Below are positions 2,264 through 21,824 of a stretch of DNA of 35,687 bases, in pieces (the stretch's first letter is position 1; each line of letters starts with the position of its first letter). Made by a program: the position numbers and the translations under genes. Below the pieces are notes generated by a model that searched no databases, had not been told where the DNA came from, and saw only the letters and a list, made by a program, of their open reading frames with translations. Origin of the DNA: an uncultured Asticcacaulis sp. (lineage in GTDB: Bacteria > Pseudomonadota > Alphaproteobacteria > Caulobacterales > Caulobacteraceae); the NCBI GenBank assembly GCA_936940865.1, contig CAKZJB010000175.1, forward strand, positions 1-35,687, in the 5' to 3' direction.

Positions 2264-2575
2264 TCAATCACCCTCGGCTACCGGAACGTCCGGATGGCTC
2301 GCCCAGGCCTTCAGAGGGTCGGGTGTCGGCCCATAACCATCGAAGACGAACCGGACGGGAACACGCAGGGCCTGGCAGACCTCGAACAGGGCGCCGGCGG
2401 GAATGCGCTCGGTCCCGGCTTCGTAATCGAGATAGTCGGATAGCTCGATGCGTGAAAGCACTGCGGCGGTTTCGGCCGACATACGAAGCAGCGTGCGACG
2501 ACCTTGCAGACGCGCACCGATATGACGATCGACGTCGCCCGGAATATGTCGAAGCTGCGAAGACTGGACGGGCAT
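2264..2575 (-). CDS. Small Xre/Cro-like helix-turn-helix protein
   Basis: I choose the ATG at 2575 (103 aa, MPVQSSQLRHIPGDVDRHIG). The reading frame extends 65 codons further upstream, but that part overlaps the structured RNA on the other strand and has no coding character. Residues ~15-75 (RRTLLRMSAETAAVLSRIEL, then YLDYEAGTERIPAGALFEVC) follow the Xre plan of helix, turn, recognition helix and the 'YE.G..R.pa..L..i...L' signature. The C-terminus (VRFVFDGYGPTPDPLKAWA) is typical of alphaproteobacterial plasmid regulators. The start lies about 30 bp from the divergent RNA copy A, so it may control that RNA. Target unknown. Confidence 0.6.
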   Translation of the reverse strand: MPVQSSQLRHIPGDVDRHIGARLQGRRTLLRMSAETAAVLSRIELSDYLDYEAGTERIPAGALFEVCQALRVPVRFVFDGYGPTPDPLKAWASHPDVPVAEGD

Positions 2576-2604: not shown

Positions 2605-2829
2605 AGCGGTACGCCCCCGCATTGAGCCTCCTCTGATCCCTGGAGATCGGGGAGTTAGAAAACCGGCAGTGCACGGTCCCTGTGACCTTTAGCCGAGGCC
2701 TGTTGCATACGCCACAGGCTCCCCGACCACATTGGTCAAAGGAGGTTTGTGTCGGAATGGCCGACATCAACCAGCACTACTTGGGCTTTCTACGACCCGG
2801 GCCGCGCGTACGGCTTGGGATCAGCTATA
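2605..2829 (+). ncRNA. Structured RNA, copy A (novel repeated RNA with pseudoknot)
   Basis: About 225 nt, alignable end to end with 21500-21730, with conserved blocks and covarying stems. Helices: TCGGGGAG 2647-2654 with CTCCCCGA 2719-2726; hairpin ACCG/CGGT (2662-2665, 2674-2677) whose loop AGTGC (2668-2672) pairs with GCACT (2774-2778), a pseudoknot; CCTGT/ACAGG (2699-2703, 2714-2718); TGTCGG/CCGACA (2750-2755, 2761-2766); GGGCC/GGCTT (2799-2803, 2812-2816). The last pairs only with G-U wobbles on the plus strand, which fixes the orientation. It does not encode a protein. It is divergent from the HTH gene at 2264-2575. I do not recognise a known family. Confidence 0.75.
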
Positions 2830-15926: not shown

Positions 15927-16775
15927 TCAATCCACGGCCCGCAGGCCGGAGCACGCAGGAAACTGCGAGCACCCATAGAAGCGCTTGCCTGAATATTGCC
16001 CGCGCCTGGCCTCGCGGAGCACCATGCGCCCCTCGCACAGTGGACAGGTCACGGCGTCGGCGGGCAAGGGCAATTTAAGCCGGTCCGATGGGACATTCCC
16101 GATCCGCGCCACGCCCTTTCCCGCCGCGAGGAGGTCGCGCAACCTCTTGCCCGTATAGAGCCAGATCGGCTTGCCTGTGGCGAACTCGGCCGCGGCCAGG
16201 GTGAAAGACCCCGACGTCACCACATAGCCGCCGGTCGCGCCCTCGGCCTGGACGACACCATAGAGCGCTCGCACGACGTCGACGCCCACACTGCCCTCGC
16301 GCCAATGCTTGGCCTGGACGAGGAACCGGCCTGCCGGCGAGGTCAGGACGATGTCATAACCGCCGTCGGCGCCCTCGGCCGTCAGTTGCGCCTCGAAGCC
16401 CATCGAGGCGAAGCCTTGGGCAGCCACCCGCTCGAGAGCCTCCCAGCTGAGCCCGGCCAGGACATCCGCATCCGCGGCCCGTTCCGCCAGCCGCTTCAAC
16501 CGCCGGCGCTCGATGAAGTCCTTCGCCCACATGGCCGCCGACATGACCAGGCACAACGGCACCAGGAACTGAAACACGACGGCCAGGGCGCGAACGATCG
16601 TCATAGCGGCCGCGTCGCCCGCCGCCTCGGCACCAATCACGACGGTGGCGACCGGTTTCACGGCGAAATGGTGGCAGACGAAATAGGCGGCAACGGCTAA
16701 TGGCAGGGTGAACCACGGCGGCACCCGGCTTAGCAGCTTGGCGAAATCGACGATCCTGTTGAACGATGCGGACAT
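15927..16775 (-). CDS. Membrane-anchored Mrr-like restriction endonuclease with topoisomerase-type zinc finger
   Basis: 282 residues from the ATG at 16775 with GGGGAGG upstream. Two hydrophobic segments (about 22-40 and 58-82). A coiled or basic linker (IERRRLKRLAERAA) leads to an Mrr_cat domain: LSWEALERVAAQGFASMGF (109-127), catalytic D141 in GGYDIVL, and Q154-A-K156 (FLVQAKHW), the Mrr D...QxK triad. At the C-terminus a Cys4 finger (C244, C247, C269, C275) of topoisomerase I type. Mrr-family enzymes cut methylated or otherwise foreign DNA; membrane tethering suggests action on DNA entering the cell. It is divergent from the HEPN-like gene. Confidence 0.82.
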   Translation of the reverse strand: MSASFNRIVDFAKLLSRVPPWFTLPLAVAAYFVCHHFAVKPVATVVIGAEAAGDAAAMTIVRALAVVFQFLVPLCLVMSAAMWAKDFIERRRLKRLAERAADADVLAGLSWEALERVAAQGFASMGFEAQLTAEGADGGYDIVLTSPAGRFLVQAKHWREGSVGVDVVRALYGVVQAEGATGGYVVTSGSFTLAAAEFATGKPIWLYTGKRLRDLLAAGKGVARIGNVPSDRLKLPLPADAVTCPLCEGRMVLREARRGQYSGKRFYGCSQFPACSGLRAVD

Positions 16776-16921
16776 GGCGCCCCTCCCCGGTGCCATTGTC
16801 GCCAAAGGCAGCCCGAAGCGGAAGGGACCAATTTTCTGAAAATTCGCCTACAAAATCCCCCGGTGGCAGGTAGTATTCGCCAGGTTGGCGTTTTTTCGCC
16901 CAAACGCATCTGAGGGCCGAC

Positions 16922-21141: not shown

Positions 21142-21441
21142 TCACTCTTTTGTTTTCAACGCCTTGGCCTCCCGATCTCGCAGGCAGGCTGTCACTCGCC
21201 CCCATTTGCCCGCTTCGAAGGAATCACGCTTCGTAAAGGCGTCCAATTCGCGCTTCGCGGATTCGCGTCGCGCGGCTTGGCCGTATAGCGCCTGTATCTC
21301 GTCGGCCAGTTCGCGAACGACCGACCTTGGAATAAGCCAGACGCGGACCTCGACCCGCCAGGTGACGAAGACGCACACCGTCAGGGCAATGATCACGACG
21401 CCCAGGAAGCTGAACATCAGGGGTTCAAACGATAAAGCCAT
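21142..21441 (-). CDS. Small single-pass membrane protein, unknown
   Basis: 99 residues. One N-terminal helix (about 9-30, FLGVVIIALTVCVFVT), then a basic amphipathic part (RELADEIQALYGQAARRESA) probably in the cytoplasm. No known family. The stop is 28 bp from the Xre start, so the two may be one transcript. The start lies 59 bp from divergent RNA copy B. Confidence 0.6.
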   Translation of the reverse strand: MALSFEPLMFSFLGVVIIALTVCVFVTWRVEVRVWLIPRSVVRELADEIQALYGQAARRESAKRELDAFTKRDSFEAGKWGRVTACLRDREAKALKTKE

Positions 21442-21499: not shown

Positions 21500-21730
21500 A
21501 GCGGTGCGCCCCCGCCTATAGCCTGCCTCTGATCCATGGTGATCGGGGAGTTAGAAAACCGGTCTTACTCGGTCCCTGTGACCTTTAGCCCGAAAGCCTG
21601 TTGCATGCGCCACAGGCTCCCCGACCATAGGTCAAAGGAAGGTCGTACCGGAATGGCCGGTATCAAACCAGTAAGACTAGGGGTTTTCTACGACCCCGGG
21701 GCCGCGCGTACGGCCCTCGAAGCAGCTATA
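21500..21730 (+). ncRNA. Structured RNA, copy B (novel repeated RNA with pseudoknot)
   Basis: Aligns throughout with 2605-2829. Helices: TCGGGGAG 21543-21550 with CTCCCCGA 21617-21624; ACCG/CGGT (21558-21561, 21570-21573) whose loop TCTTACT (21563-21569) is the exact complement of AGTAAGA (21670-21676); CCTGT/ACAGG (21597-21601, 21612-21616); TACCGG/CCGGTA (21646-21651, 21657-21662); GGGCC/GGCCC (21699-21703, 21712-21716). Compared with copy A, three pairs of the pseudoknot and two of the TACCGG stem changed on both sides. A possible alternative pairing GGTCGTA (21641-21647)/TACGACC (21689-21695) exists here. A T-run hairpin follows at 21746-21762. Likely trans-acting or plasmid-control RNA; function unknown. 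Confidence 0.78.
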
Positions 21731-21745
21731 TGACAGAATCGAAAA

Positions 21746-21762
21746 CGCCGCACGCGGTTTTT
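21746..21762 (+). terminator. Possible terminator of RNA copy B
   Basis: A small GC hairpin (CCG-CACG-CGG, 21748-21757) with an A-run before it and TTTTT after (21758-21762). The stem is short, so this is moderate evidence. Confidence 0.4.
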
Positions 21763-21824
21763 GTCCGACATGGGCGAACATTGGCGCGACGACCGCATCG
21801 GTTGCGCCCGCCGCGCCGACGGGC

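Follow-up and report, generated by a model that had tools for sequence, protein, structure and literature searches.

A structured 5′ leader RNA with a core related to sRNA-Xcc1 and a fast-diverging pseudoknot: a likely antisense switch

Described relatives of the leader RNA

The C4 antisense RNA of phages P1 and P7 (Rfam RF01695), whose exact layout in P1 is a1/b1/a2/b2, has its antisense core inside the leader of the gene that it controls. According to extracts of the cited papers, P1 C4 represses the ant (anti-repressor) gene of its own operon (PMC8198154); IsrK (STnc1160) of Gifsy-1 targets the read-through mRNA of which it is itself the leader, both in cis and in trans, and the pairing sites of the P4 CI RNA flank it on either side (PMC4825925), both being leader RNAs that act on their own transcript via alternative pairings. 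RNA control of plasmid transfer is also known, the Ti-plasmid sRNA QfsR being tied to it by base pairing with trb mRNA (extracts of PMC7912708 and PMC7843513). sRNA-Xcc1 (RF02221), known as a Xanthomonas small RNA, gives a band of roughly 100 nt and measures 88 nt by RACE (PMC2996969); it lies upstream of symE in Xanthomonas integron cassettes (PMC12444791), and transcripts of seven homologues have been detected in Xylella (PMC12189769; extracts in each case). We found no description of the present leader in the titles and opening lines of abstracts that we searched.

The window (the whole stretch of DNA analysed, 35,687 nucleotides) holds two copies, A and B, of one element of ~215 nt, both placed on the minus strand by a covariance model (R1) built from 65 sequences; two further copies lie on a separate contig (C5) of the same assembly. 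The window looks like a plasmid, and Pfam matches on 20 of its ORFs include RepA, ParA, ArdC, a Strawberry-notch helicase, a Toprim protein, and a lytic transglycosylase, among others. Positions 15927-16805 encode a protein with an Mrr-type restriction endonuclease domain and a topoisomerase zinc ribbon, which weakly matches type IV restriction models. The further homologues on which a sequence-only reading of the window had staked its claim of a selected RNA structure are indeed there, many of them on plasmids: R1 matches 98 places in 97 loci (106 to 215 bits, the 65 model sequences included).

No Rfam family reaches its gathering score in the window or, among 12 loci examined, at any leader (Atu_Ti1, present in two of these loci, lies elsewhere), in line with the sequence-only reading, which had recognised no family; but the RNA is not without recognisable kin, since its core is a remote, sub-threshold relative of sRNA-Xcc1 and the reverse search also matches. 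Specifically, i) copy B aligns on its minus strand with positions 1-87 of the RF02221 model, end to end, at 31.7 bits (E 0.001 for 431 bases; the gathering score of 53 is not reached); ii) RF02221 matches 4 of 11 further loci at E≤1, again full-length and below the cut-off of 53 (28.4-37.6 bits, E 0.004 to 0.65); iii) of 30 loci with RF02221, R1 in turn matches 22 at E≤1 (E below 0.005 in 15) and leaves 8 unmatched; and iv) both RNAs share the order of folds in the three-stem core, AUACAA and UU-UAA stretches, an upstream P2-like hairpin, a stretch a1 complementary to the third loop, and a small gene downstream. Kinship of the core with sRNA-Xcc1 is thus well supported. Beyond its lower score (28.4-37.6 bits against the cut-off of 53), the window family differs in having the additional helices P1, P4, and P9, in lacking, by eye, a T-run after a1, and in lacking, by test, an a2 site.

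The 30 RF02221 loci come from the order of a Lysobacter genome (G299), in which 24 of 200 genomes carry the family (17 over the cut-off, up to 11 copies per genome) compared with 0 of 14 control genomes. Judged by eye, most of them run from a promoter-like TTGACA through a P2-like hairpin, a1, and a further hairpin bearing a T-run to the core and then a gene; 22 of the 30 have a run of 5 or more T upstream of the core. The third loop finds an upstream Watson-Crick match of 6 or more in 28 of the 30 (16.5% with swapped loops), with a mean of 7.13 compared with 4.72 ± 0.15 for swapped loops, a mean reached by none of 300 shuffles. A downstream match of 6 or more nt is present in 10 of the 30 (6.6% when swapped), 8 of these at a Shine-Dalgarno-like stretch, and three genes after such Shine-Dalgarno-site matches encode SymE; locus L189 has a match of 5. 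In L165, L166, L181, and L189 the motif TTGTTAGGC, which we take to be attC-like, adjoins the leader upstream of the core; these four loci are probably integron cassettes of leader and symE in which the antisense target is repeated at the symE Shine-Dalgarno.

The window family shares with C4 and CI an antisense loop (a′) whose complement lies upstream within its own leader (94 of 98 copies and 52 of 55 divergent ones), and with C4 a similar CCGG-UUU-AAC-CCC linker, but copy B scores 18.4 bits against RF01695, below the gathering score of 45, and no downstream target site was found. We looked for a second target a2 of a′ in the 98 window-family copies, where downstream, upstream, and other leader regions match no better than they do swapped loops, and rejected this candidate. 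By eye P3 has no U-run in the window family, which therefore seems to have no terminator between a1 and core of the Xanthomonadales kind. IsrK gives no useful sequence match (isrK, 13.1 bits, plus strand, 21698-21764), and IsrK and CI control other genes; QfsR was compared by description only.

Structure, strand and turnover of the pseudoknot

Read 5′ to 3′ on the minus strand, the element consists of hairpin P1; hairpin P2, of the GGGG-YKTAGAAA-CCCC type; strand a1; hairpin P3; the long-range stem P4; a core in which P5 encloses P6, P7, and P8, the loop of hairpin P8 being a′; and hairpin P9, after which the gene follows.

Table 1. Positions of the leader RNAs, their parts, and the ORFs behind them in the window
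Feature	Positions	Strand	Remarks
Leader RNA copy B (P1 to P9)	21501..21717	-	R1 175.2 bits, model 1-212; also in R1 training set
P1 hairpin, copy B	21698..21717	-	6 of 7 P1 pairs vary on both sides
P2 hairpin, copy B	21681..21696	-	3 of 4 pairs vary on both sides
Stretch with a1 (pseudoknot upstream strand), copy B	21666..21680	-	GTCTTACT within
P3 hairpin, copy B	21643..21665	-	8 of 8 pairs vary on both sides
Core P5-P6-P7-P8, copy B (sRNA-Xcc1-like part)	21541..21625	-	RF02221 match 21533-21626, minus strand, 31.7 bits
a′ loop of P8, copy B	21562..21569	-	AGTAAGAC; partner of a1
Top of P9, copy B	21501..21515	-	invariance in collected set partly imposed by search pattern
ORF downstream of copy B	21142..21441	-	99 aa; hydrophobic N-terminal stretch; no Pfam match
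Leader RNA copy A (P1 to P9)	2606..2817	-	R1 166.8 bits, model 1-212; also in R1 training set
Stretch with a1, copy A	2770..2782	-	GTAGTGC within
Core P5-P8, copy A	2645..2727	-	
a′ loop of P8, copy A	2666..2673	-	TGCACTGC; pseudoknot has a G-U pair on minus strand
ORF downstream of copy A	2264..2575	-	103 aa; weak XRE-type HTH (HTH_31, E 0.004, below Pfam's cut-off)

The sequence-only reading had described two aligning copies with compensated changes, and in this it was right: copy A is 82% identical to copy B over query positions 11-241, the change from AGTGC/GCACT to CTTAC/GTAAG comprises three two-sided changes, and that from TGTCGG/CCGACA to TACCGG/CCGGTA two. Its choice of the plus strand was due to the A-C cells in P1 of the window copies, the GGGCC stem being said to pair on the plus strand only; these cells on the minus strand are real (two in copy A, one in copy B), but the family-wide excess of G-U favors the minus strand. 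The two window copies by themselves are not decisive, since G-U and A-C cells over all helices on the minus strand number 5 to 5 in copy A and 6 to 3 in copy B. Across the family, the minus strand has more G-U than A-C cells: 528 compared with 133 in the model-fitted alignment of 98 sequences (P5 and P6, 163 to 8), 377 compared with 129 in a sequence-only alignment of 65 sequences (P5 and P6, 111 to 5), and 8 compared with 0 within the pseudoknot, for which 96 of the 98 sequences could be used. On this balance and the position of the gene we reject a plus-strand RNA and read the element as a minus-strand leader.

Selection on an RNA structure with a pseudoknot, also proposed from the two copies, is borne out in the family. 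Counted over 65 homologues, both partners have changed in 40 of 57 pairs, and the 228 compensated cells compare with 90.0 ± 9.5 in shuffles (0 of 500 reach 228) and with 48 to 155 when partners are slid by 1-3 columns. Pairing is weaker in the sequence-only alignment for P4 (67.6% of cells), P7 (69.1%), and P1 (71.2%); the perfect conservation of P9 is partly due to the search pattern, and many unpaired positions of the leader are conserved. An unbroken a1/a′ run of at least 6 pairs (G-U allowed) occurs in the 94 of 98 copies (75 distinct sequences) compared with ~7% of swapped partners, the mean run being 7.0 for a copy's own a′ and 3.8 when a′ is swapped between copies. The same run is found in the 52 of 55 divergent copies (37 to 101 bits; eight loci were left out, six high-scoring and two repeating other rows), collected with R1, a model that contains no pseudoknot; their own pseudoknot score is 16.9, the best of 300 swaps being 9.0, and the three copies short of the run are L228 and L229, in which a1 is not placeable, and one more with a run of 5. 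RNAalifold also suggested kissing of the P1 and P9 loops (ACGC with GCGN), which we do not claim because ACGC is near-invariant while N varies. In several divergent copies (L198-L205), 3′ of the core, P9 is by eye replaced by terminator-like hairpins of the CACCAGAG...CTCTGGTG type with a T-rich tail.

Between near-identical copies, no segment of the leader changes faster than the pseudoknot. In 81 pairs of sequences at most 12% divergent outside it, 32.5% of pseudoknot columns differ, compared with 17.4% in the P9 foot, 12.7% in P3, and 3.4-8.4% in the rest, gaps being counted as differences; a′ is shared in 18 of the 81. We give no p-value because these pairs overlap in sequences, one sequence entering many pairs. 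Turnover can be wholesale, as between L104 and L049, which differ at 8 of 17 columns within the pseudoknot and 4 of 189 outside.

Co-resident copies share a′ in 2 of 132 distinct pairs, a figure confounded by orthology and drawn from two sets with three pairs in common. In the first (24 genomes or bins, chosen for having multiple copies, with 3 of 75 pairs from G597, where a1 is not placeable), 0 of 75 pairs share a′, and the closest band, at 0 of 7 co-resident compared with 1 of 22, is uninformative. In the second (62 of the 103 matches listed in one genus, that of G300, with seven multi-copy genomes left out wholly or in part), 2 of 60 pairs do, one an exact duplicate and the other a pair 67% identical. 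Within the 80-99.9% identity band of this set, 0 of 29 co-resident pairs share a′ compared with 175 of 949 pairs from different genomes, a contrast that overstates the effect because the latter include orthologues.

Distribution, promoter and downstream genes

The leader RNA family is real and widespread. A BLASTN search with copy B finds 282 of 72,556 plasmid records at E≤1, 217 of them typed conjugative (many from near-identical strains), 159 plasmid records at E≤1e-4, and 3 of 50,697 phage records at E≤1; a pattern from the 3′ half of the element matches genome contigs in at least 119 stretches and viral contigs in 3. Among the pattern matches listed, most are alphaproteobacterial, some are from Acidobacteria, two are gammaproteobacterial (Lysobacter and Rhodanobacteraceae), and several are from metagenome bins; copies on large chromosomal contigs are also among the matches listed. 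R1 matches 50 of 385 sampled genomes of the window's class at E≤1e-5 (own genome included), 25 of 199 in the order of G300 at E≤1e-5, and 57 of 148 in the plasmid-rich genus of G300 at E≤1e-15 (centre genome included in both), and the leader architecture of these matches is now linked with sRNA-Xcc1; in the window's own order, BLASTN at E≤1e-6 finds 3 of 299 genomes, own genome included. Some divergent copies stand in tandem (three in 1.3 kb of G656, at G656:C79:32181-33487, L221, and two in G627, at G627:C50, L231), and others are clustered, with four within about 110 kb in G549 (G549:C1, L223-L226). The core is also matched without the rest of the leader, at L164:1501-1585 and in several R1 matches in the window's class (about model 88-177 only); these may be stand-alone trans RNAs.

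A leader role for the element is well supported by what surrounds it. Directly upstream of P1, 109 sequences give a plurality promoter consensus TTGACA-17-TATGAT, with single positions 0.30-0.64 conserved (no gaps), although the promoter is weak at both window copies. Downstream, an ORF of at least 45 codons is present in 136 of 139 elements (near-duplicates included) and starts 20-39 nt past P9 in 104 of the 136, the ORFs being picked mechanically by a score that favors length, ATG, and a Shine-Dalgarno. The ORF behind copy B has no clear Shine-Dalgarno. Of 13 annotated plasmid regions, 5 have an annotated traM whose start is separated from the aligned edge by 15-25 nt; these are on pTiA8196, pSinA, pAt4, and one plasmid each of Ancylobacter and Bradyrhizobium. 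In the two plasmid regions L016 and L019, Atu_Ti1 (RF02506) scores above its cut-off within the tra region (L016:7402-7493, L019:510-601), and on pTiA8196 a ProQ/FinO-family gene adjoins leader and traM (L016:5314-5646).

A Pfam search of 91 downstream ORFs matches 37 families in all, led by PF10074 (RovC_DNA-bd; 24), HTH_3 (9), TraM (6), and DUF5818 (5), and leaves many ORFs matchless; the families matched most often are regulators, and small membrane-like proteins are also present. PF10074 is presumably the former DUF2285, a label that PLSDB gives to one leader-neighbouring gene. The protein encoded behind copy B has homologues after the contig C5 copy C5a (E 4e-17) and after the divergent copy L205 in G656 (E 6e-10), each in a single comparison. 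The structured RNA thus stands before traM and DUF2285-type genes, which are regulators of plasmid and ICE transfer. According to the cited papers, TraM is an anti-activator of TraR, and A. tumefaciens without Hfq has less TraM (PMC4201532), which would fit RNA control of traM in a way not specific to the leader; DUF2285 has a role in activation and antiactivation of conjugative element transfer, and a text search of that paper finds no mention of a UTR, leader, riboswitch, non-coding RNA, or sRNA (PMC10359603).

Candidate mechanism, its rivals and a possible start-site mask

From these observations an antisense switch is likely, and we lean slightly towards a specific version of it, in which the ~215-nt minus-strand 5′ leader controls the small downstream gene on the C4/CI/IsrK principle, by antisense pairing in cis and possibly in trans with immunity-like specificity; P1 C4, P4 CI, and Gifsy-1 IsrK are its nearest mechanistic models, and the leader would be a larger, remote relation of such phage-type antisense RNAs. 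The core P5-P8 would display the antisense loop a′, the complement of which, a1, is transcribed first. Pairing of a1 with a′ in cis would close the pseudoknot and fix the leader in one state, and an alternative state would change translation or read-through of the gene starting usually about 25-35 nt further on. By analogy with the described systems, we expect a1 to be the target of the core, in cis and perhaps also in trans. Because a1 emerges before a′ is made, RNA of the leader or its core that the cell already contains, whether made in a previous round of transcription or by a resident element of that type, could bind nascent a1 or compete for a′, so that the setting would depend on the amount of same-type RNA. 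Strand, structure, pseudoknot, leader position, kinship to sRNA-Xcc1, and the fast divergence of the pseudoknot are computational findings; we infer the switching, the direction of its effect, the trans action, and a processing of the core. On conjugative elements the downstream gene often encodes a regulator of transfer, either TraM, which acts as a brake, or one of the DUF2285 type, a domain known from activation and antiactivation; a resident plasmid could in this way set the regulator of a same-type newcomer.

Taken further, the leader could belong to an RNA immunity-type system of conjugative plasmids and ICEs, in which a resident core would recognise only same-type leaders via a hypervariable a1/a′ password and set the transfer regulator (TraM or DUF2285-type) of a newcomer or of sister copies, with diversifying selection keeping co-resident copies orthogonal. 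We put this forward tentatively and consider it rather doubtful; if true, residents would set the transfer regulator of same-type newcomers by password match.

We wish to stress that a freely varying structural pseudoknot would covary too, and that this counts against the antisense reading. A purely cis-acting leader, riboswitch-like or protein-binding, with a pseudoknot of structural importance only and a ligand or protein setting translation, is a possibility we take seriously while holding it to be on the unlikely side: many unpaired positions are conserved, the genes downstream are heterogeneous as with signal riboswitches, and no further target of a′ was found; but such a leader hardly leads one to expect a pseudoknot that changes about 2 to 10 times more than other segments among near-identical copies (32.5% compared with 3.4-17.4%), that can turn over wholesale (L104/L049), or a core akin to sRNA-Xcc1. 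That kinship leads in another direction as well, since the gene downstream of sRNA-Xcc1, symE, belongs to a type I toxin family and has an antisense match at its Shine-Dalgarno, and since the protein encoded behind copy B is small, has a hydrophobic stretch, and has a homologue after a copy in G656, itself a genome with tandem copies. A type I toxin-antitoxin-like module, in which the leader or core RNA silences a small toxic protein, is nevertheless improbable, given that regulators are matched most often downstream (PF10074 24, HTH_3 9, and TraM 6 of 91) and that the window family has no a2.

The least probable reading, and a very unlikely one, is a single-stranded-DNA element of conjugation, such as a folded site or a promoter of the Frpo type, Frpo being the name for a type of ssDNA promoter. 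In its favor are the 217 of 282 matching plasmid records typed conjugative (many near-identical) and the RepA, ParA, ArdC, and Strawberry-notch genes in the window. Against it speak the promoter consensus of ordinary type immediately before P1, the rather constant spacing to the start codon, the G-U bias on the coding strand, and, among the matches listed, copies on large chromosomal contigs and on contigs labelled Acidobacteria.

The antisense switch apart, the 5′ strand of P5 is partly repeated before the gene. Such a match, of 6 or more nt, falls in the first 60 nt behind the element in 43 of 142 copies (22 of 164 rows left out because the strand was unparsable or the stretch short); the corresponding figures are 6.8% for mononucleotide shuffles and 3.9% for 2963 ATG starts picked mechanically, Shine-Dalgarno composition accounting for part of the count. 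By eye, window copy B has no such match after the element, and we therefore keep an anti-Shine-Dalgarno role of P5 as a side observation: as a lead only, the sequences suggest that the P5 3′ strand would be able to mask the start site.
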